Assembly (NCBI GenBank): GCA_022605955.1
Contig: JAKCOZ010000015.1
Coordinates: forward strand, 8,995,287 to 9,059,286
DNA length: 64,000 nucleotides
Direction of reading: 5' to 3'
From: Rallus limicola
Lineage: Eukaryota; Chordata; Aves; Gruiformes; Rallidae
Shown: positions 37,071-64,000 of the stretch, one piece after another
Layout: each line of letters starts with the position of its first letter
How positions within the stretch are numbered: the stretch's first letter is position 1
Notes under the pieces: generated by a model
Told to the model about the DNA's origin: nothing
Seen by the model: only the letters and a program-made list of their open reading frames with translations
Databases searched by the model: none
Position numbers and translations under genes: made by a program

Positions 37071-37142
37071 GGGTTTTCTGGGGTGACCTTGTGGGGGGAA
37101 AGGAGGATAAGAGCCACATGCAACTGGGAAAAGTTCTAGCTG

Positions 37143-37148: not shown

Positions 37149-37260
37149 ACAGTGTTTTCCAGAGTACAATCCCTACAATTCTGATGGGTCGGGGATGGGA
37201 GATGAGATAAACAGGGAGATCTGGTGATGAGGGAGCTCACTGATGGTGGGTAGCCAGACC

Positions 37261-40512: not shown

Positions 40513-40599
40513 GGCGCACACAGCCAGGTCAAAGCAGCGGCAGCAGGAGTAACTGCAGGAGGAAGAAGCAGCCCTACAGTCAGACACTTCAGCCCAGAA

Positions 40600-40680
40600 G
40601 TCATAGCGGTGGCTCTCCGCCAATGGGACTCGTGCGGGTGTGTTGGGGAGGGCCCCAGAGGTCCCCAGCTGGGGGCTGAG
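40600..40680 (-). promoter_or_regulatory. CD1-B proximal promoter block
   Basis: A CCAAT box at 40620-40624 (ATTGG in gene sense) lies 108 bp upstream of the ATG, followed by GTGTTGGGGAGGGCCCC, corresponding to GGTTTTGGGGAGG in the CD1-A and -C flanks. No TATA box. Confidence 0.5.
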
Positions 40681-41099
40681 ACATGTGTGAGTGAGCAAAT
40701 ACAAAATAAGATCTAAAGGTCAAGTATAGTGACGGTTTGGGGCTGGGGAGGAGACAGGAGGAGGGGGCAGGGGAAGGGAAGATCAGGAAATGGCTCTGTA
40801 AGAAAATGTGTTCTTGAGGAACCTGCTCCTGCTGACTGCTCCTACCTGCCGGTGGTATCTGGCCCCCATGCCTGTATTTGTGGGATGCATCAGATCTGAT
40901 GGAGGGGACGGTGGCCCTGACTGGAGAAAGATGGCTACTGAGCTCTCAGCCCCACACTGAGAGAGGGCATCTTTGGCCACAATGCCTCCCCGATACCTCC
41001 AGCACAGGCTCCTCCTGCCCAACCCTGCAAATGGGGCTCCCCAGCAAAGAAGTGACTCGTGGTTCTTGCCTGGCCCATGGCAGCACAAACTGTGCTGGG
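40681..41099. other. Intergenic between CD1-B and the segmental duplication
   Basis: GC-moderate sequence without a supported gene or repeat. Confidence 0.4.
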
Positions 41100-42187: not shown

Positions 42188-43618
42188 TGCTTGATGCACA
42201 GCCATTCCCTTCTGAAGGTTGGGTGTGTGTTAGGTAGGGTCTCTTGGGAGGTCAGGCACATGACCACCTCTTCGTATCAGGTTTGCCCACCGCCAGCACC
42301 TGCAGTTAAGATTTGGTGGGTGAGCTTCTTCCCCATGTCCCATGAGTCCTGCTGGGTGTTTCAGTCTGGGAGATGAATTGCCACGTGCGCCTGATGGTGC
42401 TGAGGCTGTAGGGTCCCAACATGAGGTGAGCCCTGCCTGCACAGGACAACTTTCATCTGTCTGTCATAGATCAGTGAAGGCTGGGTAGCACTAAGTATCA
42501 CTCTACGTGCAGTGAGATCCTTGAGCCCCACACTGCCAGCCGGCAACTCTGATTGTCAGGGAAATACAGCCCTGCCCACAGCACTGTGGTACTTGGGGTT
42601 TGGCCAGGGGACAACCAGCTCCCACCAAGTGTGGTGGATGTGGCCAGTTGGGTTTTCCTCTGACTCAGCTGGTAGTTGGCTCACACATGGCTTCTGGAGA
42701 TGTTTCCACTGAAACCTTGCCAGGAAGTTGTCCTGTGAAGCCAACCCTTTTGAAGCCACACATTGATGTTTGTGGTTGATAGGAAGCATCAACTAAATTC
42801 CCTCCTATGTCTGTCTCATCTCCACTGTCTCAAATGGGAGACTGGCTTCCTTTTTTCTTAACTGGGAGGCCTGGGGGCATTTTACCCCCACGTGCATAGT
42901 TGCTTATGTAAGACTGTTTGTATAGACACAAACACTTTTACTTTTTCCCCTCTTTTTATTTCTTTGCTGTTTCCTTTAATTAGCACCAGTAATTCAGTGG
43001 TGCTCCAGCTTCCATTCACAGCTGGTCATAACCATCCTGAGACAATCCAAACCCTGAGGAGAGGCATGTGTTCTTAGAGAAAACATGAATATTTTAATTG
43101 CATTTTATACATACCAGCAGGTCACAGATTACATCAGAGTCTCAGTGTTACTCAGCACTTTATAAAATGCATTGTGGGCAGGTGCTGTTAGGCTGTGGTG
43201 GCACAGTTCAGTCTCAGATCAAATATTTTTGGAATGTGATTAAAAAAGACAGCTTTAAGATAAAGTACCAGAAAGTGACAGTAGAAGGGCACAGTTTACC
43301 ACCAACCCATAGATTTGTTATTTTCCAGAAGAAATTGACACCGGGAATTGGTGTGCCCTGAAGTGCCTCAGTGGGTGCATGAAGCTCTGACACAAGGTAA
43401 GAGGTGATCATGCATAATGTGTGAGGAGGTCTCAGACTTGCACCCTTGTGTGTCTAGCAAACTGAAGCAGTTAGGAGCCCCCCCAGGTTTCTCCTCTGCA
43501 CCTCCAAGTTGAGTTGGTCTCACACTCAGCAGTGCCCAGAATTTTGTCAAAGCAGAAAAAGGTTTTTGACCCTGTGAAGGTGGTAGAAGGAAACAAAAGC
43601 TGCTGGCTCCCTTCTGGG
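42188..43618. other. Spacer 3' of CD1-C
   Basis: No gene recognised. It presumably contains the CD1-C 3' UTR; a candidate ATTAAA in gene sense is at 43093-43098 and an AATAAA candidate is near 42955. Confidence 0.4.
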
Positions 43619-45508
43619 CTAAGCTTCTTTGCTCAGGATGGAGTTCCTGGACTCTGATTCCTCCATTTGCTGGTGCTTTCTGAAATGAGAGCGGGACAGC
43701 TAATGGACACTCCATGGAAGAGATCTCATGGGGGTGCAGACAGCAGCTGTCAAGGCCAAAGCAGGAGCTTTGGGGCTAAGTGCAGCCATCTCTTAGGGCA
43801 TTTCCCCTCATCCTCTCCCACTGCTGCTCCATGGGGCAGACAGGGCCTCACCTGTGTTTCCATGCCCAAAGCGCTATGACAGCAGCCACAGCCACAGCTG
43901 CCAGTAGCCCAGCCCCAATCCCTGCGATCAGCACCACCTCTGAGTTCCCTGAAAAATATGAGCAGAGGCTCCCATGAGTTTTCCTGTCTTTGTTCCATCC
44001 CACAAGGCAGGGCTGCTTATAAGCCCCATGAGAGGCACCTACCCCATGGGATGAGGAGGCTGCGGGTGCCCAGGCTGCGATGACGCACACGGCAGGCGTA
44101 GCTGTGCCCGTCACGAGGGGCCACGGCCAGGATGCTGCGGAGCTGGTAGGTGAGGTCGGCGTTGGGCAGGATGGCGCTGGTGTTGAGTGCTGGGCCCGGC
44201 GGCACCTCCTGGCCATCCCGCAGCCAGGCCACACTGATGGGCCGTGGGTAGAAGCCGGTGACGCGGCAAACCAGCAGAAGCTGCTCTGGTCTGGATGTGC
44301 GGGCAAAGACTGTGGCCACAGGCATCTCTAGGGGGTGAGAAGGAAAGGGTGGGGGGAGCCCCGCTGGGGCACTGCTTGGCCCCAGTGTGTGGGGCTTTGG
44401 GGTGGCTGTGCTCTCACCTGTGCTCTCACCTTGTCTCTCCAGAGCTGCTTTCCCATAGTGCAGTAACACCTCCATGTCATCGACACAAGTATAATTGAAG
44501 AGGACTTCCACCAGCTCGCTGAAGGCGGTATAGTTCTGGAGAACAGCCTGGACATACCGTGACAGATTGGTGTCTTGGGAGAGGAGCCAGGTAGCATTGT
44601 CCACACTGAAGCTGAGGAAGTCCTGGCCATTGTAACCCACATAGGCGAAGGCTCGGGAGGTCCTATTGTGGTAGAGCTCACAGCCTGCTACGCATTGGGC
44701 CACAAAGGGGTCTGGAGGTGCAGAGAAGAGAGAGAGGTTGCATGAGGGGCTGGGACAGCCTTTCTGGGGATGTGGTCAGCAACTCTTATGTAGTACTAGC
44801 ACTACTGAGTCCTTCCCCATGCTCCATATGCTGTTTAGAGATCAGATGCAAAGATGACCGGGTACTCACAGGGCACATCCCTCTGCATTGCACCTTCATT
44901 GATCAGGTGGCTGAACTGCTGCAAATAGATCTTGAGCATGTTCTCAATGGTGTCCCAGTCACTGCGGGGCAGGGCTGGGCGCACCCAGGGCTGATAGAAG
45001 CGGATGGACCAAGTATGCTTATCAAGGGAACCAAGCTCGATGTCTTCCAGCAGGCCCAGCCCTTCTATGTCCACAAAGGAAGTATTTTGGAAGATGGAGG
45101 TTTGGAGCAGCCGGAGGGTGAAGGTCCCTACATGAGATGGAGGTCAACATGGGGAGAGAGCTGGGGAATGTGGAAGGGCTGAGGTATGGGTCCTCAAGTT
45201 TGCAGGGACCTGCAGGGTCCCGTAAGCCCCTGTATCCTGGGCAGCCCCAGTTCCCACCCTCTACACCTACATGAGGTGGCTGCATCCCTACCAGGAAGGA
45301 GATGTGGGACCAGGGGACAAGGAAGTGCGAGAACACAAGTGCCTAGGGCAGGTAGGGAGCAGGAAGCCCCTCGCCCGCTGGGTCTCATGGTAGCATAGCA
45401 GCATATGAGCCATGGCTCCTACTTACCTTCCTGGTCTGCCCATGTCCCAGAGAGGAGGAGGAGGTGGATAGGAAGGAGAAGAAGGAGGCAGCAGTGAGGG
45501 GGTTGCAT
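43619..45508 (-). CDS. CD1: CD1 antigen-presenting molecule, CD1-C
   Basis: The most compact CD1 gene: signal 45427-45508, alpha1 44870-45127, alpha2 44430-44711, alpha3 44043-44327, transmembrane 43852-43948, tail 43619-43679 (minus), giving 354 aa with all phases closing. The signal starts MQPPHCCLLLLLPIHLLLL. Alpha1 has TLRLLQTSIFQNTSF and WSIRFYQPW. Alpha2 opens YPFVAQCVAGCELY, with FNYTCVDD for the disulphide. N-glycosylation sites are numerous (QNTS, NRT, DNATW, QNYT, FNYT, LNTS). Alpha3 differs from A and B at one residue by eye (LAVAPRDG for LVVAPRDG). The transmembrane helix is Ala/Val-rich and ends LWAWKHR. The tail is the longest and ends ESESRNSILSKEA, with no tyrosine. A second in-frame donor 12 nt beyond the alpha2 donor could add four residues. 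Confidence 0.93.
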
Positions 45509-47783: not shown

Positions 47784-48871
47784 CAGCTCCAACTCTCCTC
47801 TAACCTCCCCCAGAGAGGGCCTGGGGCTGGGCTGCAGCCTGGCACTCCTCTTTACATCCCAACTTATGTGGTGGGGAACCCTGTCCCCTGCTACAAATGT
47901 CCCTGGGAACAGGAACAGGAATGGTGGGGTCCATCCCCCGGCTCTGTCCCCATTGTCCCCCAAGTGGCCAGTGCTGGAGGGACAAAGGGGCAGCCAGAGC
48001 TGGGTCACCCCCACACTGTTCCCTACCCACTGCTCCTCCATGGCTGTCCCCTGGCACCTTGCTTCACCCTGCAGTTTCTCTTCCCCTTTCCTGGGGGTGT
48101 CCATGATGGGGGCAAAGGCGGAAATGAAACCAGAGAAAGGGGAACTTTAGGGTGGGACGGCCCGCTAACTAAACACAGCCTGGGGCCAAGGCCTCCCCCT
48201 GGTGACATGCGTCTGGGCAACACATGACCCTTCCAAGCACAACTGGGACCAGGGATCCCTGCTCCATCTCTTCATCTCAGATGACCCCAGCTGTGGTGAG
48301 CACACAGAGAAGATCCATATGGGGCTGCTGCAGGCTGAGCTCCCCCACTCCATGACACCAGATCAGACACGCGGAGACTAGGACACCATACCCCTTCCTT
48401 TCTGTGGAGCTGTCCCATAGAGAAGTAGGGGTGCTGCGGTGGCCTGGCAGGCCCAGAAATGGTACCAACTTCTCCAGCAGCTCACCTTGGCATCACCCAG
48501 GGGATGTCTGGCCATGCCACCACATTGCCCACATCCCTCCTGGCAGGGCCACTAAGTGCTAGGGTCAGAGGAGAGTGTTTGGTTGGTGGGATGGCTTAGC
48601 TCAGCCATGGAGTGGCCAGGGAGGGAAGAGGCAGTGGCATGTTTGCCCACACCGTCCTATGAGGTTTGTCCTTAGGCCCCATTCCAAAGGGGGACCCTTT
48701 GGTCACCTCTTGCTGAGCAGCTGACAGGCCAGTAGCAGACCTCTGGCTTGTGCCAGTGTGTTGTCAGGTCACTGACACCTCTCCTCCCCCTTGCCAGTCT
48801 CATCTCCCCTCCTTACTGTCACAGGTTAACAGTCATTTCCTTCTGTGCGGTGGCAGCAGCATGGGAGGCTG
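47784..48871 (+). repeat. 1088-bp segmental duplication, copy 2
   Basis: Second copy of 41100-42187 in direct orientation. Its right end joins directly to the T-gene tandem unit. Carries the EICE-like variant GGAAATGAAA at 48120-48129. Confidence 0.9.
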
Positions 48872-50033
48872 CTCCTGGCACTCGCTTCTGAAGCATTGGG
48901 AGGTGCTGTTTTGCTTTGAGGGCTTTAGTGGCTTTCCCCTGCAGTAAAAAAAACGCTGAGGGGCTGCTATGTTGGTGCATCTGCTCCTCGAGGGTGTTGC
49001 AGCTGGGGTTTATGACCAGGGTCAGAGCTTCCAGAGGGGCCTTGCCGTGCCAGTTAGCACCGCCAGCTTCACAGCGCTGCTGGCCTGTAAGAGGGACTGC
49101 TCTTTGGCTGCTGTGTTTCTGTGCTAGGAAACGCAACACATTTCTGCAAGCAGCCTCAGCTGGGAAAGCACATTTTGCTTTGCAGACAGCAGTCTGAGCT
49201 GGCCTTTGGTTCTGCGTTAATTGCACCCAGAACGGAAGGCCGTGAAAGCCAAAGCTGCTTGTTTCAGAGCACCGCTGTAGAAGAGCCCCCCGAGGCTGGA
49301 AAGGGCTGGCTCGGGCAGGCTGCAACCACTGTCCCTGCGGCAGGCTGGGACACCCTGTGCCTGCAAAGGCCTGCAGAGCCGAGCATCAGCAGAGCCAAGT
49401 AAAACTACAGAACAGCTACACTACAGAACGGCATTGCACCAACGGCATTCAAACGGATCTGATGAAATGCACAGTCTTCACTCAGCCTCATGAGCTGCTG
49501 GTGGCAGCACCCAAGGAGGCCAGTAACTCTCCCGAGAGCAAGGCCTCCTGGGGCACACCGTCCATTTATTTAGCCTGCTCCAACAAGTGGCACGCAGAAG
49601 CCAAGGGCATGCGCCAGGCCCCCTCTCCCACCCCAGGCCAGCCCTTTGTTTCTTTCATGAAGTGGCAAGGAAAGTGATTGTCAGGTCCCTGGCTCTCTGC
49701 TAACGTCTGCAGAAGCAGGCTGAGGCCGGACACCTCACGCCAAGGCAGCTGCAAGAAGGGAGAGCTCGTGCAGTCTCAAGAGGTTGGGTTGTTGCTTCTT
49801 GCAGGCCCAAAAGCCGTGGGCTGAGTTTCCCCATTGCTCTGGGGTGTGCCAGTTCCTCACTCCCCTGTGACAGTGCCCGGAAAACAGGGCAGAGCTGTGG
49901 GCTCAGCCTGTGTGGGTCTGTGTCCCAGCCCTTGCACGGAGCTGCCCAGCGGGACATGCTCCCCTCCCCACCAGGGCCCCAACTGTGCACAAGCTTCTCT
50001 CCCTGAGCACCCTGAGAGCCCTCTGCATGCAGC

Positions 50034-50074
50034 ATTGGCACAGCCAATGGGGTCACAGAGGGGCTGTGAGGTCA
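50034..50074 (+). promoter_or_regulatory. T1 promoter: inverted CCAAT pair and CRE-like site
   Basis: ATTGGCACAGCCAAT is a palindrome of two opposed CCAAT boxes, followed by TGAGGTCA at 50067-50074, one base from a CRE. The same arrangement is kept in T2 (about 57876-57917). No TATA box. The position, 135-175 bp before the signal-peptide ATG, fits a core promoter. Confidence 0.45.
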
Positions 50075-50147
50075 TAGAGCCCAGCCATGATGCAACAGCC
50101 TTAGAAGGCAGAATCTCAGCCCCTGGCTCTCACTTCAGTTGCAGTTT

Positions 50148-50183
<36 letters not shown>
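50148..50183 (+). repeat. (CAG)12 tract just upstream of T1 start
   Basis: Twelve perfect CAG units end 25 bases before the ATG. T2 has a longer but interrupted tract (CAG, CAC and GAG units, about 57985-58031). The length difference is a multiple of three, and an upstream in-frame ATG (50047) would read the tract as polyserine. Confidence 0.85.
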
Positions 50184-50185
<2 letters not shown>

Positions 50186-50208
50186 TTATTGGACACGTGT
50201 GTAGGAAC

Positions 50209-53200
50209 ATGGCCCTGACCCGCCATGTTCTCCTTGTCTTCCTTCTCCTCGTGGCCCTGCATGCCAGGGCTGCCTGGGCTGCTCCTTTCTCTCCAATGCA
50301 GGGAGCAGGTGAGCAGGTGGCGGGGTGCAGGCTTTCACTGGCTACAGGCCAGTGGGCTTTTCTCCCAGAGAGGCGCGGGTGGTGGGCTTTTGCCTCAAGG
50401 GCTTTAGTCAGGCTCACTTTGCCTTCCAAAGCTCCACGCTGGCCCTTCTGAGCCTGAGCCAACAGCCCCGGAGTCCTTTCTCCTGGCAGCTCCCCACATG
50501 CTTCCTTTTGTCCCAGCATGGTGCCACTGCAGGCACACAGTGAGTCTCTGCACCATGCTACAGAGGGGAAGGGAGAGACAAGGGCTGTGCAGGAACCTCC
50601 TCTGGGACTTGCACTCCACACCACTCTGATCACAAGCACCCTCTAAAACTGTGTCACGGGAGCTGTTCTGGCCTGTGCTTGTTTGCAGCTCTGCCCATGG
50701 GGGAAGGGGATCCATCTGCCTGGCTGGCTTCCTGGACTGACGCTCCGGCAGATCGCATGGGTATGTCAAGGCTTTTTCCGCCCGCCCTCTGAGAGCTGCC
50801 AGCTCAAAGCCCAAAGGGCAGCCAGGCGGGCGCCTCTGCGGCTGTGAGGATGGAGACCTGCACGCGTGTGCCCTCTCCGCACGCGATCTCCCCTCACCGC
50901 TTCTGCCCATGTGGATTGCAATCCATGACGGAACCTCCTCTGGTGGCTCAGTTACAGATGTGCCTGTAGGAACGACTGTTCCAGCTCCTGGCCTGGATGC
51001 TGTGCCCCAGCCCCGCTGGCATCGCAGGGGTGAGTCAGTCAGTCTCTGCTGGCCTCACTGGCTAAGCATTGCTTTTCCAGAATGTACTGGTGTGGAACGG
51101 ACCCGTATGCTTTTCTCTTCAGGTCCTCCAAGAGGGCGGTACCAACCTGAGGGAGTCAAAATGAACCCGGAGTCCTCTCTGCACCTAAAGAAAATGCTAG
51201 ACGACCTGGAGAGGCAACACGGTGAGTGTATTTCATTCTGCCTTAGTCATGAGATGTGGCAGCTGGAGGTTTTACATACACGCTGTGGCTTGTGCCACAG
51301 GAAAGGATTGATTGAAGCCTTGCAGCAGCCATGCTGGGTTTCAGGCGCTGGAAGTCAGGTGGCAATGCTGATTCAGCAGGCTTTCTGGGCTGTGCTGCAT
51401 TTTCCACCTGCCTCTCAACAGCTGGAGTGGGACAAATGCGTGTGGTGCTGATGCTTGCAGGGAGAGGCACAAGGGCCCTTCTCAGAAGGGCTGTTTCCCT
51501 GTCTGGCCTGGCTGCAGCTTCTGGCTGCCCTCTTTGAAGGCAGGCATTTAGCATTCCCTTACAGCGTGCCAAAAACGCACAGCATGCCACCCACACTGGA
51601 ACATCACACGCCATTTCCTGGCCTCCCAGCAGGTCAGGTGTGACTGTGGTCTGGAGCAGTGACTAGGTGCAGCCCCAAAAGCCCAGGCATTCTTCCTAAA
51701 CCATATTGGTGTCTTGCCTTGCCGCCTGAGGATGCCATCTCCCTCATGGGGAACACTCCCATCTAATCCAGCTGTCCTGCTTGCTTTCTCAAGAGACGGA
51801 CCAGGAGGCTGCAAGAGAGCTGTTGTCTCCAGAAAGAAGCAGCGGCTTACTGCCAGTCCCGAGGGGAGAAACAGAGGCAATGCCAGGCGCCGGTGTGCCA
51901 GGTAGTGTCCGTCATGCACAGTCAGCCAGTGTCACCTGTCAGGATGGCTGTGTGTCCCCCCATGCCAGCTCTTGCCCGTCATGTCAACTGCCAAAGCTGA
52001 ACAGGTTTTGGGTTCGAGGCATCTGGGCCACGTTCTGCAGCTGACCGGAACCGTGACTTTTCCGTGACACACACCTCTGTCTGTAGCTGCACCCCAGAGC
52101 TTGTCGTGAGCCCCAGGAGGCCCAAGAGCAGCACAAGTGGGATCCCTCCCCTGATCTGAGGTCCAGAGCAACGCCCGGACTCTCACCTGGCTTGCACAGG
52201 GGCTTTGGGGAACCTCTGGGTGGTCCTGCATCCTCCATGCCTGAGCCATGCTGAGGCTTTACATGTTGTCTCTTCTATTCGGCAGCGCGTTCCAAGTCCA
52301 GAGAAGACCACCACAGCAGAACGTATGAATTCTTTCCAGTAGACTCAGGTACTGACCCAAAATGGGAGACACCTCCCAAAACCTGGGAGCATCTGCGAGC
52401 AGTGCCCAGGCTGGAGAAAAGGCAGAAGGGGAGAACAAAAGTTTCAGGTGTCCCTTGAGAAGGCCTCGGGCTGTGGGAGCTGGCCTGGCAGGGAGGGAGG
52501 GATGGGGTTGGCGCTCTCTGCTGCCGGGATGGCTTTTGCCCGTGTCCCTCGAAGGAGCGAGTGAGTGGTCAAGCAGCTGAGGTCTGCCATGTGCTCTCCT
52601 CCTGGCAGCCTGTGTTTTCTTGGGTGGCACGAGCTGTCCCAAGGGTGCAAGCGTGCCTCCAGGCACAGGCATGGAGAGGAAACCGAGGACTTCCCGGCCG
52701 TGCCCACCAAAGACGCCACAAGCTCACCAGTGGTGCACAGGATGGACTAACATCCCAATTTGCTCCTCCAGATGCAGGCAGAGAGAGGACAAGTGCTGAC
52801 AGTCCCATAAAGGCCTCTGGTGTATTCTGCCCCGAAGAAGTGCGCTGGAAGTGTATGACTGGCACAGCGGTTGCATTCGGTTTCCTGCTAGTTGCAGTCA
52901 TGGTGGTGTGTGTGATGCGGTGGCGGAGGCGGCAAAAGAAAAAACAGTGAGTTGTGGATCTATTCTACCTCCCTCCCGGCAAAGACATGCACCCACGCTG
53001 CTTGCTTTGGTGGCTGCTCCTAGCCAGGAAGGATTTCTAGTCAGGCTGCTGCAGAGTGGCCAGTTAGTGCTAGGCTAAGAACTCTGCTGAGCTTTCTGGT
53101 GCTGTCAGATGCTTCAGCCTAATTCCTGGGCGGCCAGCTCAGGAGCCTGCTCTGACTGCAGCCAGTATCAGCTCCAACTGACCCTGCCTGGACAAGAGCA

Positions 53201-53589
53201 GCCCCAGGAGCGGGCTCAGGAAGAGAAAGAGCAGGCCTGAGGTCGCTCTACCAACAGAGCCATGCACTAGCACCCAGTGCTGAGCACGAGCCCTGCTCAG
53301 AGGAATGCCGCTGCTGGGTGGTGCAGTGAGGGGCAGTGTCCACCTCAGACCAGGGGTGCCAGCAGCTCCACCGTGGCTGTGAGCCTTGCTGCTCTGGGCC
53401 ACCGGGGAAAGGAGAGGGCCTGAGTCCCATGAGTGGCCAAGGGCCTGAGCCGCCTCCTCTCTCCTCAGGTACGCATCTGGTGCTTCAAGAGGCGGGTACG
53501 AAATGGGCAGCCGCCCCTCAGATATGGAGAGTGGCTACATGTACAACACCCATCCCGGAGTGCCAGAGGCACGGCACCAGTACCAATAG
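50209..53589 (+). CDS. Unknown type I membrane protein T1 (short tail)
   Basis: Family not recognised. Eight exons with consensus borders: 50209-50308, 50689-50760, 50958-51029, 51123-51221, 51794-51901, 52286-52348, 52772-52946, 53469-53589. Phase 1 throughout, phase 2 before the last; 269 aa. The signal peptide is MALTRHVLLVFLLLVALHAR. The ectodomain (about 175 residues) is Pro/Arg/Glu-rich and cysteine-free until FCPEEVRWKCMTG next to the membrane. The membrane helix AVAFGFLLVAVMVVCVM is followed by RWRRRQKKKQ. The tail has RGGYEMGSRPSDMESGYMYN and stops at a TAG (53587-53589) where T2 reads on into a proline-rich region. I chose the ATG before the signal peptide; an in-frame upstream ATG exists at 50047. 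The early stop and the ERV sequence behind it suggest a shortened or decaying copy, but the other exons are intact. Confidence 0.7.
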
Positions 53590-53631
53590 ATGCCACAGCA
53601 CCCTGCCAAACCGGCACAGCCACCTCCATGC

Positions 53632-54008
53632 TCCTTACGTTACTTCTCCATGGTTATCTGAACTTAAAAAATACATTCCTTTCTGTCTCTTAACTGGTCG
53701 CTAGTCTCATTACTTACGTCTCCCCGATCTCCTCCGGATCCTGCAAGGCTGGCTGTTATGGCTAAGCTTTGTAGCTGCTTTCACAAAACAGTTCACAGCA
53801 CAGCCATATCCTACTAAAATCCAAAACAAATATATTCTTACAAATACACAAATTAAGGTTATATTAATTGTCTAAAGCTACATCTTCATCAATCTATTCA
53901 GCATTATATTTCACTGAATCATTCCCCCCTTTTCATTACCCTTGCAAATTCTTTTGTAATCTCAAATGATACTATCCTATCTTAATGATTTTGGAAAGTA
54001 TTTACCTG
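53632..54008 (-). mobile_element. ERVK-like 3' fragment (polypurine tract and part of LTR)
   Basis: The left part matches the U3 half of the LTR at 18712-19372. On the minus strand a polypurine tract (AAAAGGGGGGAA) lies just before the LTR-start TGATTCAGTG at about 53920, and internal retroviral sequence continues to about 54008. It is therefore the 3' end of a provirus, truncated inside the LTR. It splits the T1 tail exon region; host sequence on both sides overlaps by about 80 bp, too long for a target-site duplication. Confidence 0.7.
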
Positions 54009-54012
54009 CCAC

Positions 54013-54905
54013 AGCATCCATCCCGGAGTGAGAGGCTTGGCCGCAGTACCATCAGTACCACCAGGCGCCGCAGCAGCCTGCCAAACCGGCACGGCCGCCT
54101 CCGCCAGTGTCTCCAGGTCCGGCTTCAGCGCGGCCTCCACAGGCACCGTCCCACTCGGACAGCCACCTCCGCCCGGACCGCCCCAAAAATTCACAGGATG
54201 CAAGGCTGGTTTGGCACATTGCAGCCCAAACCAAAAGGGCCCCCCCAACCCCGCTTCACCAGCCCACTGGCTTCACCTCCCCAAGGTGGGCCACCACTGC
54301 CCGTGCCGGGAGCACCCCTAAAATTCACATGATGCAAGACCAGATTGGTACACAGGCCCGCCTCTCTCACAGTCTCCGCAACGGGCTTCACCGCAGCCTC
54401 CACAAAACCTGACCTCCCTCTGACCACCAGAACCCCCCTTACTGCTGCCTCAGCCTGGACCACCCGCAACCTTCCATAGGGTGAAGGACCAGAGTTGCAC
54501 CTTGCAGCCCCAACCAAAAAGGCCCCCCTGCCCCACAAGCCAACTGGCTCAGCGGTTGAAGATGGACATGCCAGGGCAGAGGTTGGGGAATACCAACAGC
54601 GACCAGAAAGATGGAGCTGTTTCACAAGTGCCCGAGCAGTTCCAACAGCAAACCCTGCGAGGCACCAGCCTCTCTGCAGCCGTTGGATGCTCACAGAGCA
54701 GGAGTCATATTATAAACTGCAGGACAAAAGATTAAGGATAGGAGAACCCACAGAGCTGGACCCAATGCCAGCGACCACTACACCAGGCTGGCAAACCAGC
54801 ACTTGCTACGGCCCCACACATGGCTGCTCCAAAGCCTGCACAGCCTCCAAGCCTGGCTTCACCACAGCCTCACCAGAGCAGTGAATGCTCACAGTGTCGG
54901 CAGGC
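54013..54905 (+). pseudogene. Displaced T-family tail and 3' modules
   Basis: Host sequence resumes with a second copy of the tail: CAGTACCATCAGTACCACCA, then the frame QAPQQPAKPARPPPPVSP, without the TAG found in T1. It degrades into three diverged copies of the 3' module (near 54190, 54320 and 54475; AAAATTCACAGGATGCAAGG type). The proximal AATAAA present in T2 and T3 is deleted here (around 54605). Not spliced to T1 as it stands. Confidence 0.6.
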
Positions 54906-54911
54906 AGGGGC

Positions 54912-56541
54912 CATAATTTATCAAATCCAATCATCCGAATTTAGCCATTGACAATATGCATCCTGGAATTCCGCATTCATGAAACCATGTGTCCAATTCA
55001 GAGAATTCAATTTTCATGTCATCATTCGTTTTTGACCTATTAATTTCTTAATGCTGAGTGGCCAGACAGATTTTTATAACAAATACAATAAGGCAGCAAC
55101 AAAGGGCAGTTACTGCCTGCTTCTGAGAGTCATATCTATAGCTAGATACGTTAATAGTTTGAATGTTGTATTTGTTTGTTTTGCCAATCAGGAGTGGTAG
55201 GAGTGCAGGTAACACTAGGCTCACGTTTGTGTAGGCACCCCTTGTAGTCTGTGTTCTTTAATTTTGCAGTTATCACAAACACACATATTTCAAAGACTAT
55301 TAGACGATCGAAAACGTTCCGCAGCAAAACTGGTGATCCATTATTGCTGCACTGGAAAAGTTGACTTCAGTTACTGCGATCAGGATCCCATCCCGGTTCA
55401 TGGGCATGCTCATGTCTTCTTCTGGATCAATGGTCGTTTCCACTTGGTTCACGTATCTGTAATGACATAGGCAAGTCTCCTTGCCCAAGTTAGTACGTGC
55501 TTTGTTTTTTGGGGTTTTTTTTGTGTTTTTTTTTTTTTTTAGCAACATTTGTTCAAACATATAGCATATACAACAAACAACAAAGAACGAACTGCAAACC
55601 GATTTATCAAACAAATAACATCGCAAAACGCGAATCCACTCAGTTTGGGGGGGGGGGGGGAGGGACGGACTGAGTGTCAGGACCGCCGCGCGGTCGGCAT
55701 GCTTCCTTCATCTCTTGTGAGGCTGTTTGGATGAATAACTCAGCTGTCCGGGAGCGGGAACTGCAGCTACGATTACCTCCTTGCGTCTCGTCCCGCCCCA
55801 TTCTTTTGAAGTCTTTCACCAGGTCTTTCAAGGGATCGTTCTCGCTCTCTGAGTCAAAGCTGCCTGACTCCTCCCCCATTCCCGGCGGATGTGCCTTTTG
55901 TCTCCACCCCTGCACCCGGTCGACGCCATCTTTATCTTTTTGTGGCGCAGCAATTTTTTTTCCATCTCAAGAGGTCCCCGGGCGCCCCCCCATCCGTGGA
56001 CGCATTGATATTTGTCTCATCTACCCCTTTTTCCTCATCTGTCCCTTTCTTTGCCTTTCTTTGCCCACTGCGACCGCATCCACGTTCCAGGGAGCCAGTC
56101 CTCTGGTTCAACTAGCACATACGGGCATGTATCCTCCTGCTCGGTTGATTCCTCTCCCCGGTCCCCGCTGTGCTTCCCCTCCGGTCGGCGACCAGACTCC
56201 CGTCCACTCTCCGCCGACCCTGCTCCCGATTTCTCCGTCTCTCGCAAATCATCGAAAGGGTAAAGTGGAGACGCATTCGCAGTGCGTGGGTGAGGGGGTG
56301 GAGGAGGGTCGGGCGCAAGTCCGGGCTGCGTTTGCGGTTGTTTTTTAGGAGAATTCCCGCGTTTGTCAATTGGAAGGACTTGCCGTTTTCCTCCCTCCTC
56401 CACACCCTGCTGTTCCTCTTTCTGCCTCACGATGTCTCCCCACTCCTCTTCTAAATTCCCCGTTTCTCTTTTGTGCTTAATTAGGTCTGTGTCGGTTTGA
56501 GTCCCTGCCGCGACGCTTTGATACAGCAGCTCCCTGGCCTG
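54912..56541 (-). mobile_element. ERVK-like internal fragment with broken gag
   Basis: An insertion relative to unit 2: host homology leaves at 54911 and returns at 56542. On the minus strand, open frames at about 56514-56035 and 55915-55640 in different frames read like retroviral gag (IKHKRETGNLEEEW, a PPPPPHP proline run, ASPLYPFDDL). The remainder to 54912 is AT-rich and lacks a clear domain. The copy is truncated, frameshifted and without LTRs at its borders, so it is not functional. A G14 run is at 55647-55660. Its orientation matches the 3' fragment at 53632-54008. Confidence 0.55.
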
Positions 56542-57024
56542 CCTTCTCATCAAAGCCAGCACAGCCTCCAAGCCTGGCTTCACCACAGCCTGCAAGGCCC
56601 TGCGGCCCTCTTCACTGCCTCTACCAGCCATCAGGGAGCCCCAGAGAGATGGACCTGTTGCCAGCAGGCACCACAATGGCCTGGCAAACGGGCACGGCTG
56701 CCCTCCCCACGGTCCCCACCCCAGCCCTCCGCCAACCCTCCTGCAACGGCAGGACCAGATTGGCGCATGCCAGCACCGACCAAAAGGCCCCCCTCTCCCG
56801 ACCCCAAAAGCCCACTAGATCAGCCTTTGGGTACCTGCTGAAGGTGACCCCCAAAGAGTAGGAGTCGGCCTGCGAAAAGCAGCACGAGCGATTATACGGC
56901 CAACGGAATGTCCAGTTCTGATAATCTGTCTCCAAATAAAGATGGATGGAGCTGTTCCACCTGTGTCCACTGGGACAGAAACAGAAACTCAAATGTCACA
57001 GCAAAGGCCTTTGTCAGCTGGGGT
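56542..57024 (+). repeat. Second 3' module of unit 1
   Basis: It matches unit 2 from 62213 on, with an internal deletion, and carries a second poly(A)-like AATAAA at 56935-56940. Long open frames here follow from GC-rich repeats (GGCTTC.CC..GCCT motif). Confidence 0.6.
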
Positions 57025-57875
57025 TTATGACCAGCTTCCAGAGGTGCCGTGCCGTGCCGGTTAGCGCCACCAGAACGGAAGGCCGTGAAAGCCAAAGCTG
57101 CTTGTTTCAGAGCACCGCTGTAGAAGAGCCCCCCGAGGCTGGAAAGGGCTGGCTCGGGCAGGCTGCAACCACTGTCCCTGCGGCAGGCTGGGACACCCTG
57201 TGCCTGCAAAGGCCTGCAGAGCTGAGCATCAGCAGAGCCAAGTAAAACTACAGAACAGCCACACTACAGAACGGCATTGCACCAACGGCATTCAAACGGA
57301 TCTGATGAAATGCACAGTCTTCACTCAGCCTCATGAGCTGCTGGTGGCAGCACCCAAGGAGGCCAGTAACTCTCCCAAGAGCAAGGCCTCCTGGGGCACA
57401 CCGTCCATTTATTTAGCCTGCTCCAACAAGTGGCACGCAGAAGCCCAGAGCATGCGCCAGGCCCCCTCTCCCACCCCAGGCCAGCCCTTTGTGTCTTTCA
57501 TGAAGTGGCAAGGAAAGTGATTGTCAGGTCCCTGGCTCTCTGCTAATGTCTGCAGAAGCAGGCTGAGGCCGGACACCTCACGCCAAGGCAGCTGCAAGAA
57601 GGGAGAGCTCGTGCGGTCTCAAGAGGTTGGGCTGTTGCTTCTTGCAGGCCCAAAAGCCGTGGGCTGAGTTTCCCTGTTGCTCTGGGGTGTTCCAATTCCT
57701 CACTCCCCTGTGACAGTGCCCGGAAAACAGGGCAGAGCTGTGGGCTCAGCCTGTGTGGGTCTGTGTCCCAGCCCTTGCACGGAGCTGCCCAGCGGGACAT
57801 GCTCCCCTCCCCACCAGGGCCCCAACTGTGCATAAGCTTCTCTCCCTGAGCACCCTGAGAGCCCTCTGCATGCAG

Positions 57876-57917
57876 CATTGGCACAGCCAATGGGGTCACA
57901 GAGGGGCTGTGAGGTCA
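57876..57917 (+). promoter_or_regulatory. T2 promoter: inverted CCAAT pair and CRE-like site
   Basis: Same layout as T1: ATTGG/CCAAT palindrome, then TGAGGTCA at 57910-57917, about 140-180 bp before the ATG. Confidence 0.45.
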
Positions 57918-58057
57918 TAGAGCCCAGCCATGATGCAGCAGCCTTAGAAAACAGAATCTCAGCCTTTGGCCCTCACTTCAGTTGCAGCACCAGCAGGAGC
58001 ACCAGCAGGACCAGCAGCAGCAGCAGCAGCGGCATTATTGGACACGTGTGTGGGAAC

Positions 58058-61000
58058 ATGGCCCTGACCCGCCGTGTTCTCGTTGTCTTCCTTCTCTTCG
58101 TGGCCCTGCATGCCAGAGCTGCCTGGGCTGCTCCTTTCTCTCCAATGCAGGGAGCAGGTGAGCAGGCGGCAGGGGTGCAGGCTTTCACTGGCTGCAGGCC
58201 AGTGGGCTCTTCTCCCAGAGAGGCGCGGGTGGTGGGCTTTTGCCTCAATGGCTTTAGTGGCTTTCCTCTGTGGTAAAAAAGCCCTGAGGGGCTGTTATGT
58301 TGGTGCACCTGCTCCCCGATAGTGTTGCACATGGCCTGGAAAGCGGGTTTGCAGAACTGCCGGGGGCCAGGCGAGAGGTCATGGGCAAGCTCAGCCTACA
58401 TCTGGCTCCCACATTGTTACCTGGCCCCTTTCCAGGGGGGAGCCTGGAATTTGCCAACGCAGCAGAGGATCCCAACCTGCAATGGAAACGTTTCTCATCT
58501 GTGCTTGCTTGTAGATGAGGATGGTGGTGAGGGTGGCAATGGTGGCTCCTTTTGTCCCAGCACGGTGCCACTGCAGGCACACAGTGAGTCTCAGCACCGT
58601 GCTGTGGAGGGGAAGGGAGAGACAAGGGCCATGCAGGAACCTCCTCTGGGACTTGCACTCCACACCACTCTGATCGCAAGCACCCTCTAAAACTGTGTCA
58701 CGGGAGCTGTTCTGGCCTGTGCTTGTTTGCAGCTCTGCCCATGGGGGAAGGGGATCCATCTGCCTGGCTGGCTTCCTGGACCGACGCTCCGGCAGATCGC
58801 ATGGGTATGTCAAGGCTTTTTCCGCCCGCCCTCTGAGAGCTGCCAGCTCAAAGCCCAAAGGGCAGCCAGGCGGGCGCCTCTGCGGCTGTGAGGATGGAGA
58901 CCTGCACGCGTGTGCCCTCTCCGCACGCGATCTCCCCTCACCGCTTCTGCCCATGTGGATTGCAATCCATGACGGAACCTCCTCTGGTGGCTCAGTTACA
59001 GATGTGCCTGTAGGAACGACTGTTCCAGCTCCTGGCCTGGATGCTGTGCCCCAGCCCCGCTGGCATCGCAGGGGTGAGTCAGTCAGTCTCTGCCGGCCTC
59101 ACTGGCTAAGCACTGGTTTTCCAGAATGTACTGGTGTGGAACGGACCCGTATGCTTTTCTCTTCAGGTCCTCCAAGAGGGCGGTACCAACCTGAGGGAGT
59201 CAAAATGAGCCCGGAGGCCTCTCTGCGTTTAAAGAAAATGCTAGACGACCTGGAGAGGCAACACGGTGAGTGTATTTCATTCTGCCTTAGTCATGAGATG
59301 TGGCAGCTGGAGGTTTTACATACACGCTGTGGCTTGTGCCACAGGAAAGGATTGATTGAAGCCTCGCAGCAGCCATGCTGGGTTTCAGGCCCTGAACTTG
59401 TGTTGATCACACGTGTAGCAGCGCTCGCCCGCTGGGCCAGCTGTTCTTCCTAAACCATATTGGTGTCTTGGAGAAGCCTTGCCTCCTGAGGATGCCATCT
59501 CCCTGATGGGGAATACTTCCATCTAATCCAGCTGTCCTGCTTGCTTTCTCAAGAGACGGACCGGGAGGCTGCGAGAGAGCTGTTGTCTCCAGAAAGAAGC
59601 AGCGGCTTACTGCCAGTCCCGAGGGGAGAAACAGAGGCAATGCCAGGCGCCGGTGTGCCAGGTAGTGTCCGTCATGCACAGCCAGCCAGTGTCACCTGTC
59701 AGGATGGCTGTGTGTCAGCAGGCTCTTCCCCCAGGCCTGCCCTTGCCCGTCATGTCAGCTGCCAAAGCCGAACAGGTTTTGGGTTTGAGGCATCTTCTGC
59801 GTGACACGCACCTCTGTCTGTAGCTGCACCCCAGAGCTTGTCGTGAGCCCCAGGAGGCCCGAGAGCAGCACAAGTGGGATCCCTCCCCTGATCTGAGGTC
59901 CAGAGCAACGCCCGGACTCTCACCTGGCTTGGACAGGGGCTTTGGGGAACCTCCGGGTAGTCTTGCATCCTCCATGCCTGAGCCATGCTGAGGCTTTACA
60001 TGTTGTCTCTTCTATTCAGCAGCACGTTCCAAGTCCAGAGAAGACCACCACAGCAGAACGTATGAATTCTATCCAGTGGATTCAGGTACTGAGCAGTCCT
60101 GATGGGGTCCCAAAGTGGGAGACACCTCCCAAAACCTGGGAGCATCTGCGAGCAGTGCCCAGGCTGGAGAAAAGGCAGAAGGGGAGAGCAAGGTTCAGGT
60201 GTCCCTTGAGAAGGCCTCAGACTGTGGGAGCTGGCCTAGCAGGAAGGGTGGGTTGGGGTTGGCGCTCTCTGCTGCCGGGAGCTCTTGCCCGTGTCCCTCG
60301 AAGGAGCGAGTGAGTGGTCAAGCAGCTGAGGTCTGCCATGTGCTCTCCTCCTGGCAGCCTGTGTTTTCTTGGGTGGCACGAGCTGTCCCAAGGGCGGAAG
60401 CGTGCCTCCAGGCACAGGCATGGAGAGGAAACCGAGGACTTCCCGGCCGTGCCCACAGAAGACGCCACAAGCTCACCAGTGGTGCACAGGATGGACTAAC
60501 ATCCCAATTTTTTCCTCCAGATGTAGGCAGAGAGAGGACAAGTGCTGACAGTCCCATAAAGGCCTCTGGTGTATTCTGCCCCGAAGAAGTGCGCTGGAAG
60601 TGTATGACTGGCACAGCGGTTGCATTCGGTTTCCTGCTAGTTGCAGTCATGGTGGTGTGTGTGATGCGGTGGAGGAGGCGGCAAAAGAAAAAACAGTGAG
60701 TTGTGGATCTATTCTACCTCCCTCCCGGCAAAGACACGCACCCACTCTGCTTGCTTTGGTGTCTGCTCCTAGCCAGGAAGGATTCCTAGTCAGGCTGCTG
60801 CAGAATGGCCAGTTAGTGCTGGGCTAAGAACTCTGCTGAGCTTTCTGGTGCTGTCAGATGCTTCAACCTAATTCCTGGGCGGCCAGCTCAGGAGCCTGCT
60901 CTGACTGCAGCCAGTATCAGCTCCAACTGACCCTGCCTGGACAAGAGCAGCCCCAGGAGCGGGCTCAGGAAGAGAAAGAGCAGGCCTGAGGTCGCTCTAC

Positions 61001-61661
61001 CAACCGAGCCATGCACTAGCACCCAGTGCTGAGCACGAGCCCTGCTCAGAGGAATGCCGCTGCTGGGCGGTGCACAGAGCGGCAATGTCCACCTCGGCCC
61101 AGGGGTGCCAGCAGCTCCACCCGTGGCGGTGAGCCTTGCCGGCTCTGGGCCACCGGGGAAAGGAGAGGGCCTGAGTCCCATGAGTGGCCAAGGGCCTGAG
61201 CCGCCTCCTCTCTCCTCAGGTACGCATCTGGTGCTTCAAGAGGCGGGCACGAAATGGGCGGCCGCCCCTCAGATACGGAGAGTGGCTACAGGTACAACAC
61301 CCATCCCGGAGTGCCAGAGGAACGGCCGCAGTACCATCAGTACCACCAGGCACCGCAGCAGCCTGCCAAACCGGCACGTCCACCCACGCCAGTGTCTCCG
61401 CGCCCAATTTCACCGCGGCTTCCACAGACACCGTCGCACCGTGGACTGCAGCCTCGCTCCGGACCGCCATCTCCCCCCGGACCTCCACCTCCCCCCGGAC
61501 CGCCACCTCCAACCGGACCCCCACCTCCCCCCGGACCGCCACCTCCCCCCGGACCGCCACCTCCAACCGGACCCCCACCTCCCCCCGGACCGCCACCTCC
61601 CCCCGGACCGCCCCCCTCCACCCGGACCCCCACCTCCCTCTGGACTGCCAACCCCGACTAG
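58058..61661 (+). CDS. Unknown type I membrane protein T2 (proline-rich tail)
   Basis: The best preserved copy. Exons 58058-58157, 58733-58804, 59002-59073, 59167-59265, 59554-59661, 60023-60085, 60521-60695, 61220-61661; 376 aa with all phases closing. The layout is that of T1: signal MALTRRVLVVFLLFVALHAR, low-complexity ectodomain containing a helical KKMLDDLERQH and TYEFYPVDS, two juxtamembrane cysteines, transmembrane helix, RWRRRQKKKQ. The cytoplasmic tail starts YASGASRGGHEMGGRPSDTE, has repeated QYH, then KPARPPTPVSPRP and 11 units of a PPPPGP-type minisatellite. The ninth unit has 19 bases, so the end is read in a different frame (..TSLWTANPD, stop 61659-61661) from T3. Such a tail could bind SH3, WW or EVH1 domains (inference). 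No N-glycosylation site was seen. Function unknown. Confidence 0.72.
61461..61659 (+). repeat. 18-bp coding minisatellite in T2 tail
   Basis: Eleven units of GGACCGCCACCTCCCCCC type (Pro-Gly-Pro rich). Units 3-5 and 6-8 form a 54-bp higher-order repeat. Unit 9 (61605-61623) is 19 bp, one extra C. T3 has only three units and T1 one degraded unit. Confidence 0.9.
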
Positions 61662-61818
61662 ACGGCCTGCAGCATTCCATAGGTTGCAGGAGCGGAATCG
61701 CACCTAGCACCTCTAAACAAAAGGGCACCCCCGGCTGCAGGGGCTCACTTGGATCACCATTCAGTGTGGCCGTGCCAGCAGAGAGGTCGGGGCATAGCAA
61801 CAACGACCAGCTCTTTGA

Positions 61819-61824
61819 AATAAA
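61819..61824 (+). promoter_or_regulatory. Poly(A) signal of T2
   Basis: AATAAA about 160 bases after the T2 stop codon, conserved in T3 (63716-63721) and deleted in unit 1. A second AATAAA lies at 62662-62667 in a diverged copy of the same 3' module. Confidence 0.55.
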
Positions 61825-61899
61825 GACAGAGGGAGCTGTTTCACAAGTACCTGCGTTGTACCAACAGCAAACCCTGCGAAGCACCAGCCCCTCTGCAGC

Positions 61900-62560
61900 C
61901 GAGGATGCTCACAGTGTCGGCAGGCAGGGGCTGGACCCTCTGGAGAAGATCGATGCAGGTGCCACGTTAGGGGTGCTCACAGCCAGCCCGGCAAAATGGC
62001 AACACCGCCTTGCCCAGGCGCCCGCACCCGGCTTCTGGAAAGCCTGCACCGCACACACGGCCCTCGCGCCAGGCTTCCCCACAGCCTCCAGAGCCCCCGC
62101 TGTCTCCCAGCTTGCCCATGTCCTGCGGCCTGCACTGCTCCCGTGCTTGGCTTCTCCAAAGGCTCCAGGCCCCCCGACCCCGCTTCTCCACTGCCTCCAT
62201 GGCCCCCCTTCTCATCAAAGCCTGCACAGCCTCCAAGCCTGGCTTCACCACAGCCTGCAAGGCCCTGCGGCCCTCTTCACTGCCTCTACCAGCCATCAGG
62301 GAGCCCCAGAGAGATGGACCTGTTGCCAGCAGGCACCACAATGGCCTGGCAAACGGGCACGGCTGCCCTCCCCATGGTCCCCACCCCTGGATTTGCCAAA
62401 TCCTTCACAGCCCCCATGCTCGGCTTCTCCAAGGCCCTCGCAAAACCCCAGCCCTCCGCCAACCCTCCTGCAATGGCAGGACCAGACTGGCGCATGCCAG
62501 CACCGACCAAAAGGCCCCCCTCTCCCGACCCCAAAAGCCCACTAGATCAGCCTTTGGGTA
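61900..62560 (+). repeat. Degenerate GGCTTC-type repeats, 3' of T2
   Basis: A degenerate motif (GGCTTCTCCAAAGCCT and variants) recurs at irregular 30-60 bp spacing. All three plus-strand frames stay open for long distances, which I attribute to GC-rich repeats rather than a gene. Confidence 0.5.
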
Positions 62561-62746
62561 CCTGCTGAAGGTGACCCCCAAAGGGTAGGAGTCGGCCTGC
62601 GAAAAGCAGCACGAGCAATTATACGGCCAACGGAACGTCCAGTTCTGATAATCTGTCTCCAAATAAAGATGGATGGAGCTGTTCCACCTGTGTCCACTGG
62701 GACAGAAACAGAAACTCAAATGTCACAGCAAAGGCCTTTGTCAGCT

Positions 62747-64000
62747 GGGGTTTATGACCAGGGTCTGAGCTTCCAGAGGGGCCGTGCCGTGCCAGTTAGC
62801 ACCGCCAGCTTCTCAGTGCTGCTGGCCTGTAAGAGGGACTGCTCTTTGGCTGCTGTGTTTCTGTGCTAGGAAACGCAACACATTTCTGCAAGCAGCCTCA
62901 GCTGGGAAAGCACGTTTTGCTTTGCAGGCAGCAGTCTGAGCTGGCCTTTGGTTCTGGGTTAATTGCACCCAGAACGGAAGGCCGTGAAAGCCAAAGCTGC
63001 TTGTTTCAGAGCACCGCTGTAGAAGAGCCCCCCGAGGCTGGAAAGGGCTGGCTCGGGCAGGCTGCAACCACTGTCCCTGCGGCAGGCTGGGACACCCTGT
63101 GCCTGCAAAGGCCTGCAGAGCCGAGCATCAGCAGAGCCAAGTAAAACTACAGAACAGCCACACTACAGAACGGCTCTGGGCCACCGGGGAAAGGAGAGGG
63201 CCTGAGTCCCATGAGTGGCCAAGGGCCTGAGCCGCCTCCTCTCTCCTCAGGTACGCATCCGGTGCTTCAAGAGGCGGGCACGAAATGGGCGGCCGCCCCT
63301 CAGATAGGGAGAGTGGCTACATGTACAACAACCATCCCAGAGTGCCAAAGGAACGGCCGCAGTACCATCAGTACCACCAGGCACCGCAGCAGCCTGCCAA
63401 ACCGGCACGTCCGCCCACGCCAGTGTCTCCGCGCCCAACTTCACCGCGGCCTCCACGGACACCGTCCCACCGTGGACTGCCGCCTCGCCCCGGACCGCCA
63501 CCTCCCACCGGACCTCCACCTCCCTCTGGACTGCCACCCCCGACCAGACGGCCTCCAGCATTCCACAGGTTGCAGGAGCGGAATCGCACCAAGCCCCTCT
63601 AAACAAAACGGCAGCCCCAGCTGCAGGGGCTCACTGGAAGAGTCCTTCGGTCACCATTCAGTGTGGCCGTGCCAGCACAGAGGTCGGGGCATAGCAACAA
63701 CGACCAGCTCTTTGAAATAAAGACAGAGGGAGCTGTTTCACAAGTACCTGCCTTGTACCAACAGCAAACCCTGCGAAGCACCAGCCCCTCTGCAGCCGAG
63801 GATGCTCACAGTGTCGGCAGGCAGGGGCTGGACCCTCTGGAGAAGATCGAGGCAGGTGCCACGTTAGGGGTGCTCACAGCCAGCCCGGCAAAATGGCAAC
63901 ACCGCCTTGCCCAGGCGCCCGCACCCGGCTTCTGGAAAGCCTGCACCGCACACACGGCCCTCGCGCCAGGCTTCCCCACAGCCTCCAGAGCCCCCGCTGT
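62747..64000 (+). repeat. T-gene tandem unit 3 (partial, internally deleted)
   Basis: It starts like unit 1 (49003), then jumps at 63171-63174 directly to the intron before the last exon. From 63786 it follows unit 2 (61886 on) to the window edge, so the array continues. Confidence 0.85.
63251..63602 (+). pseudogene. T3: isolated last exon of T family
   Basis: Only the tail exon remains, with its splice acceptor (CTCTCCTCAG). It reads YASGASRGGHEMGGRPSDRE, QYHQYHQ, three proline units, then FHRLQERNRTKPL and a TAA at 63600-63602. This is probably the ancestral reading frame of the C-terminus. The signal, ectodomain and membrane exons are deleted, so on its own it cannot give the membrane protein. 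It could only be used as an alternative last exon of an upstream copy. Confidence 0.75.

Follow-up and report, generated by a model that had tools for sequence, protein, structure and literature searches.

Among described proteins that bear some likeness to those considered here, the BG proteins of the chicken possess an Ig-V domain, and PRIMA1 is a small single-pass protein containing a proline-rich region. TMEM40 (PF15817) is a different protein, and its likeness lies in its position as a neighbour and in the name given to one crane model. The chicken BG genes (cf. PMC4046983 and PMC8813856) are a multigene family of birds; they encode single-pass membrane proteins, with separate shuffling of the outer and the inner parts, and in these respects they resemble the tandem T genes in a 64-kb window (the whole stretch of DNA analysed) of the Rallus limicola genome. 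Unlike BG proteins, T1 and T2, the two eight-exon genes in this window, match no Ig family in Pfam at E<=1, and on this ground membership among the Ig-superfamily receptors (BG, CHIR) was rejected. Homologous signal peptides and exon modules are found in uncharacterised bird proteins, which include LOC129211146 of Grus americana, LOC142603224 of Balearica, LOC128141371 of Harpia and LOC127473534 of Manacus. These proteins carry neither a name nor a function, and many also have a CPQDVRRRC-like juxtamembrane segment, a transmembrane segment and a proline-rich tail, as the T genes do. The T genes of the window differ from them in keeping one early exon merely as a relic, in the GPPPPP minisatellite of the tail and in the amplification of exon 8 alone. 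No account of the T family was found in these searches of open papers.

The original prediction of two eight-exon genes with matching splice phases was reproduced, including a 269-aa model for T1 (50209-53589) and a 376-aa model for T2 (58058-61661), and these gene models are real. Exons 1-7 have identical lengths in the two genes (100/72/72/99/108/63/175 nt), all seven introns of each have GT-AG borders, exons 2-6 have phase 1 at both ends (1-1), and exon 8 is entered in phase 2. The signal peptide, single transmembrane helix and basic stop-transfer that had been read from both genes are all present in the models. Every feature listed here lies on the + strand. In T1, exon 1 (50209-50308) holds the start codon and the signal peptide MALTRHVLLVFLLLVALHARAAWA, for which there is a homologous segment in bird proteins. 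The gene model then places exon 2 (50689-50760), exon 3 (50958-51029; DVPVGTTVPAPGLDAVPQPRWHRRG), exon 4 (51123-51221; a possible helix, LKKMLDDLERQH), exon 5 (51794-51901) and exon 6 (52286-52348; EDHHSRTYEFFPVDS). Exon 7 (52772-52946), whose T4 counterpart was checked, encodes the juxtamembrane cysteine pair, the transmembrane helix and the stop-transfer, and exon 8 (53469-53589) encodes a shortened tail. With an alternative AG 6 nt upstream, exon 3 of T1 would gain the VT that several other birds have. The gene model of T2 consists of exons 1 (58058-58157), 2 (58733-58804), 3 (59002-59073), 4 (59167-59265), 5 (59554-59661), 6 (60023-60085), 7 (60521-60695; transmembrane) and 8 (61220-61661; proline-rich tail). 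Intron 1 of T2 retains, at 58514-58561, what is left of the beginning of the DE-GGNG exon that other birds have; it reads DEDGGEGGNGG and then continues in unrelated letters. A search for a second early-exon relic gave nothing convincing.

The array consists of near-identical copies in tandem just upstream of TMEM40, and it continues beyond the window with three further eight-exon copies and one seven-exon copy. Outside the window, T4 has a reading frame that is open throughout and T6 has a frameshift; T5 is also open throughout, yet is counted as having a shifted tail. T7 has exons 1-6 in common with the other copies and a different exon 7, and a search for its exon 8 found none. TMEM40 follows on the same strand about 15 kb past T7; this adjacency is true in the Rallus limicola genome, and in Grus japonensis it is inferred from a fused model. 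CD1 genes also neighbour the array. The window had no Rfam match at gathering scores, and no tRNA was found in it.

In T1 an insertion from about 53606 breaks exon 8, and tail homology picks up again at 54011. Exon 8 of T4, T5 and T6 terminates in ...FHRLQERNRT, and the T2 tail terminates in ...TSLWTANPD, its frame having shifted near the end in comparison with T4. The GPPPPP stretch of T2 is the product of an 18-bp minisatellite in exon 8 at 61459-61650, and the gene has its own A[AT]TAAA match at 61819. GPPPPP was not seen in the 16 long-tailed (40+ aa) homologues compared. A core of [AV]RP[PAST][ST]P recurs in T4 and in 8 of these 16, three of the 8 being paralogues from one species.

It had been proposed that this tail recruits SH3, WW or EVH1 proteins, and the motif counts do not support this. 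The whole T4 tail has 2 SH3-I and 2 SH3-II motifs, fewer than shuffled tails (about 4 each); without the repeat, the 2 SH3-II motifs compare with 0.41 in shuffles, which is borderline (p 0.058). SH3 motifs are at chance level in the Harpia and Theristicus tails. A WW- or EVH1-recruiting adaptor was rejected, as neither PPxY nor [FWYL]Px.P occurs in the T4 tail. The tail may bind such proteins, SH3 partners among them, in spite of these counts.

The claim that the protein has no nameable domain has stood, with no Pfam family above cut-off for T1 or T2; a comparison of the first 284 residues with the PDB gave no match. PRIMA1 (PF16101) was considered and rejected, since it was hit by T1 only, over residues 190-247, at E 0.24 with a score of 11.6 bits, where the cut-off is 38.6. 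Of 3790 candidate proteins, 19 match at E<=1 (E 8.6e-72 to 2.6e-18), and a wider search gave 52 homologues at E<=0.01 among 7997 candidates scored. The relatives come from 21 bird species and are uncharacterised or judged misnamed. The suggestion of a fast-changing multicopy family is borne out. The signal-peptide exon and ectodomain modules are homologous to those of the LOC129211146/LOC142603224 group, to which the T genes belong. The labels 'ZC3H18-like' (P0020) and 'PRRC2C' (P0052) were rejected as uninformative because both sequences show T-family segments. Identity with TMEM40, a separate neighbouring gene, was likewise rejected; the Grus japonensis model P0007 looks like a fusion of a T-family gene with TMEM40, which would account for the name on that crane model. 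In a tree, T1, T4 and T7 cluster with four crane proteins (support 100/99). No galliform, anseriform or palaeognath relative was seen in the homologue searches, an absence that carries little weight because these searches depend on shared 5-residue words and the wider one scored only 7997 candidates.

The ectodomain is built of symmetric phase-1 exons, the modules being duplicated or dropped, and their number is 5 or 6 across 12 manakin isoform models. FCPEEVRWKC contains the sole two cysteines of the T4 ectodomain, which agrees with the predicted juxtamembrane pair in a cysteine-poor ectodomain. A C-x(6-8)-C arrangement before the membrane is found in T4 and in 20 of 28 homologues that bear a transmembrane segment. 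The T4 ectodomain is rich in Pro, Arg, Ala and Glu and lacks Asn, and its charge-hydropathy value lies barely on the disordered side (0.017 vs -0.011). HRRGPPR recurs in the homologue alignment, and the transmembrane segment, the stop-transfer and long tails also recur across species. No transmembrane window (maximum KD under 2.0) was present in 15 of the 43 homologues scanned; our guess is that many of these models are partial or misjoined.

The interpretation that we favour, with moderate confidence, is that the T genes represent an undescribed multigene family, apparently confined to Neoaves in these searches, whose products are type I single-pass membrane proteins. Counting against it are the T6 frameshift, the shifted tails of T2 and T5, the broken tail of T1 and the failure to find exon 8 in T7, as well as the softness of the selection estimate and the homologues that have no transmembrane window. 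The protein would reach the cell surface, and composition suggests that its ectodomain could be largely disordered, with a short helix and the juxtamembrane cysteine pair holding it as a dimer. The tail may signal when spliced in; read-through of the exon-7 donor in T2 meets a stop right after KKKQ and would give a tail-less form resembling the short-tailed homologues. A weaker suggestion, prompted by the fast turnover, the multiple copies and the CD1 genes nearby, is that the protein acts in recognition or adhesion, in cells of the immune system or the germ line. Its relatives have outer parts made of modules and tails either short or long, a second branch is dispersed, and the family, unnamed in databases across many birds, offers a test case for the origin of lineage-specific surface proteins. 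Expression in immune or germ cells would make it a new group of fast-evolving bird surface proteins.

The array also provides an example of an exon that was amplified on its own, with the remaining exons of the gene left out. The third copy, predicted to be cut down to the last exon, does contain that exon, but it is unit 1 of 14 tandem units of 1.88-1.90 kb which carry exon 8 alone. Within the window, which ends at 64000, unit 1 is counted from 62742, a start point chosen arbitrarily (exon 8 at 63251-63602), and the other 13 lie beyond the window, between 64639 and about 89157 if its numbering is continued. These units are probably a passive macrosatellite: a full unit would have lost a stretch that began about 760 nt upstream of its start codon and reached to within about 80 nt of exon 8, and the remnant would then have been amplified by unequal exchange. 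The junction is consistent with this origin, as 62742-63187 matches 49000-49445 and 63171-63259 then matches 61140-61228. Also in keeping are the two length classes, 18 bp apart, with one unit a base longer, and the substitution rates, which over the first 81 codons of 91 unit pairs have a mean dN of 0.0102 and dS of 0.0083, as expected under neutrality; the units thus look neutral. The tail frame is open to its usual stop (...RNRTKPL) in 13 of 14 units, which is less expected of a passive repeat, though a young array would show likewise.

It is possible, although unlikely, that the whole array is decaying and consists of relics of a once-functional family held open through recent duplication. 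Besides the defects or altered tails of T1, T2, T5 and T6 and the missing tail exon of T7, this would fit the identity of T4 and T5 across exons 1-6 and the rise of dN/dS between T1 and T2 to 0.46 (NG86), 0.69 (YN00) or 0.72 (ML) over a longer stretch, comprising exons 1-7 and the beginning of exon 8, where 13 of the codon changes are replacements and 8 are silent. T2 and T7 give 0.67. Against decay, related frames with conserved segments occur in 21 species, and exons 1-6 of T1 compared with T2, T4 and T5 are gap-free with dN 0.021 and dS 0.065 (dN/dS about 0.33), introns 1-5 in the same comparison having 28-29 gaps. Across exons 1-7, 18 of 689 positions distinguish T1 from T2 and no gap occurs; across introns 1-7 the figure is 89 of 2231, with 582 gapped columns. 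The best reading of these rates is that the family may be under weak purifying selection, the estimate being soft, with dN/dS between T1 and T2 ranging over 0.33-0.72 by method and stretch.

A more doubtful proposal for the exon-8 units is that the head exons of T2 splice to any of 15 terminal exons, its own and those of the 14 units, possibly giving a single ectodomain with a series of tails. All 14 units, on the same strand and 1.6-26.1 kb past the T2 stop, have an intact acceptor as well as an A[AT]TAAA match, their frames are mostly intact, and variation within the unit is highest in exon 8 (pi 0.0086 vs 0 to 0.0058 elsewhere). However, the neutral rates given above argue against it, the tails differ in only a few residues and by a step of six residues, T2 already has an A[AT]TAAA match of its own, and the unit at 76458 is frameshifted. 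Since the units are 99.1-99.95% identical to one another, their open frames may merely reflect youth. The passive repeat is the likelier explanation. It seems equally improbable that the protein is the precursor of a secreted or proteolytically released peptide with the membrane anchor as mere carrier, for although RWHRRGPPR resembles a dibasic cleavage site, its core recurs in homologues and some homologue models have no membrane window, the anchor and long tails are found across species and the models without one are perhaps partial.

The second branch, family B, is divergent, with matches to exon 1 at 38 further sites in the genome; dozens of its sites lie on contigs other than that of the array, most of them small. 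The T genes are relatives of family B outside its clade: in the tree, family B and the crane protein P0054 group together (support 100/100) separately from the T genes, with family B filling 41% of columns. A far more ambitious reading would make the T array and the dozens of family-B places one dispersed superfamily, a bird-specific recognition system with an outer part varying by module number and exon skipping and, in this bird, one gene drawing its signalling tail from 15 terminal exons; we consider this very improbable. Family B also has a crane relative, LOC142603772.

The original prediction had recognised two eight-exon genes and a third copy reduced to its last exon, an observation that is correct but understated. 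Both genes are borne out: T1 has exons at 50209-50308, 50689-50760, 50958-51029, 51123-51221, 51794-51901, 52286-52348, 52772-52946 and 53469-53589, and T2, which encodes 376 aa as claimed, at 58058-58157, 58733-58804, 59002-59073, 59167-59265, 59554-59661, 60023-60085, 60521-60695 and 61220-61661. Every intron is GT-AG, and exons 1-7, equal in length between the two, show 18 differences over 689 positions and no gaps; the introns differ at 89 of 2231 positions, with 582 gapped columns. Intron 1 of T2 contains the relic of an exon that other birds retain. A CAG/GCA repeat lies directly upstream of each start codon (50148-50184 in T1, 57984-58034 in T2). The tail exon of T1 has an AT-rich insertion at 53606-54010, part of which (53627-53921) resembles 19038-19372 at 75%, and between the genes an unassigned stretch at 54900-56500, with minus-strand ORFs at 55300-55707 and 56035-56814, has no Pfam match.

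Matches in the genome to the T2 transmembrane exon number at least five full and at least one partial, all on C15, the contig on which the window occupies 8995287-9059286. Another 70 kb past the window was read, and in continued window coordinates the array runs T1, T2, fourteen tandem units, as assembled, carrying exon 8 only (exon starts 63251 to 87769), T4 at 90372, T5 at 96318, T6 at 102268 and T7 at 108170. The open frame reaches a stop in both T4 and T5, although the T5 tail departs from frame and later re-enters it, and in exon 4 of T6 there is one added base after which stops are read. T7 retains exons 1-6, and the start of its exon 7 resembles the other copies (35 of 175 bases matched); this exon reads NVCRNCMIGAVAVVICVPLIMVACYIGIRMQAGI, then a stop, and no exon 8 match was found downstream of it. 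The transmembrane segment (TM) of T7 is 52% identical to that of a crane protein, against 43-45% for the other copies. TMEM40 (L012; C15:9121391-9121629) is on the plus strand, as is the array, some 15 kb downstream of T7.

This family is genuine, and in the open papers searched it has no name. With the T2 model minus its repeat tail (296 aa) as query, 3790 candidates yielded 19 proteins at E<=1, the strongest at 8.6e-72, and a search with the family alignment A1 found 52 at E<=0.01, with 7997 candidates scored. Together these relatives come from 21 bird species, all of which we take to be Neoaves, and with three exceptions their names are 'uncharacterized', 'hypothetical' or 'unnamed'; the labels TMEM40, ZC3H18-like and PRRC2C on three relatives were judged mistaken. 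No Pfam family exceeded the cut-off, the best being matches to the TM region (Sema4F_C 0.015, TM_ErbB1 0.013-0.02), and the first 284 residues matched no PDB chain at E<=1.

The protein comprises a signal peptide, symmetric phase-1 exons, a YxF segment, the TM, a basic stop-transfer and a tail, and we take the segment LxxMLxELERxHETDREA for a helix. Among 43 homologues scanned for TM and cysteines (11 manakin isoforms were excluded), 15 have no TM window; the juxtamembrane cysteine pair is present in T4 and in 20 of the 28 that bear a TM. Tails span 8 to 170 residues. Modules are duplicated in the crane proteins P0001 and P0002, and the manakin gene has five or six across 12 isoform models whose main differences are entire modules. 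Isoform models of this kind, whose numbering in the manakin reaches X31, are usually based on RNA reads. The most likely mechanism would be that of a modular, mostly disordered and disulphide-paired surface protein in which the tail may be optional.

Tail motifs were counted against 2000 shuffles. The T4 tail has two SH3-I and two SH3-II motifs, both below the shuffle means (3.96 and 3.98), and no PPxY or EVH1 motif; without the repeat it has two SH3-II where 0.41 are expected (p 0.058) and four [ST]P where 2.01 are expected (p 0.10). Counts in the tails of Harpia and Theristicus are at chance level. The core KPxRPxxP, picked after looking, is rare in shuffles (p 0.031 for T4, 0.002 for T4 without the repeat, 0.003 for Harpia) and as written is absent from the Theristicus tail.

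Substitutions among the T copies suggest constraint that is present but weak, from few changes. Over exons 1-6 (NG86; T6 excluded for its frameshift), dN and dS are 0.021 and 0.065 for T1 against T2, T4 or T5, 0.021 and 0.082 for T1 against T7, 0.0105 and 0.032 for T7 against T4 or T5, 0.0105 and 0.0157 for T2 against T7, and 0 and 0.0156 for T2 against T4 or T5, the last two being identical to each other. In a longer T1-T2 comparison, which takes in exons 1-7 plus the first part of exon 8, 13 codon changes are replacements and 8 are silent; NG86 gives dN 0.022 and dS 0.049, YN00 0.025 and 0.036, and ML 0.025 and 0.035.

Each exon-8-only unit resembles a full unit that lacks the whole interval from about 760 nt 5' of the start codon to some 80 nt short of exon 8. 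The units are 1879, 1897 or 1898 bp long (13 spacings measured), with a mean pairwise identity of 99.55%, the end of unit 14 being our choice. It is possible that their exons are alternative tails for T2, a putative tail bank. In all 14 the acceptor is retained and one A[AT]TAAA match lies within 1100 nt, and in 13 the tail frame runs to ...RNRTKPL, that of unit 76458 being shifted. Variation within the unit is highest in exon 8 (pi 0.0086 versus 0 to 0.0058 elsewhere); the first 81 codons of this exon contain five residue-changing and two silent codons and give, over 91 pairs, a mean dN of 0.0102 and dS of 0.0083, which we read as neutral. The exon-8 array that marks out this Rallus limicola genome is most likely a neutral repeat.

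A second, divergent branch (family B) is dispersed in the same genome. The crane protein P0003 has at least 58 matches, at least 20 of them on C15 and at least 38 on twelve other contigs, with at least 22 on C48. Eight stretches, two of them overlapping, were fetched (L022-L029), representing seven of the 38 places. They carry a separate family with a signal-peptide exon, segments resembling exons 2, 4, 5, 6, 7 and 8, and a short tail containing PPPPLQLSKF. The signal peptide and exon plan are in common with the T genes, and exon-1 matches occur at at least 38 places. Aligned exons are 94-99% identical to L023 outside contig C19 and 73-92% within it; in L024 the exon 7 match is of 30 bases only, and L027 is interrupted by the end of the stretch. 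At 94 nt, the putative coding exon 4 of family B is not divisible by three, and it is gap-free in the five other loci that could be aligned. A database search over 954 candidates gave a single related protein, from Balearica (1.2e-26). In the tree family B pairs with this protein at 100/100, and four crane proteins join the T genes at 100/99; P0031, also from Balearica, is placed elsewhere. From this the bird of the window is probably crane-like. Balearica P0003 has a serine run ahead of its signal peptide, as does the family-B frame.

Upstream of T1, roughly 31.8-45 kb into the window, CD1-like genes are encoded on the minus strand. By Pfam this array (31785-45143) has three Ig-type and several alpha-domain exons, and the best PDB match of 44017-44775 is chicken CD1A1 (1.4e-64). 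These genes are on a 25-Mb contig shared with TMEM40, whereas the chicken CD1 pair is placed in the MHC on chromosome 16 by PMC8813856. The segment 41316-42187 recurs at 48000-48871 with 98.5% identity, and the first exon of BICD2 is at 5084-5557 on the minus strand (PDB match 8.6e-34).
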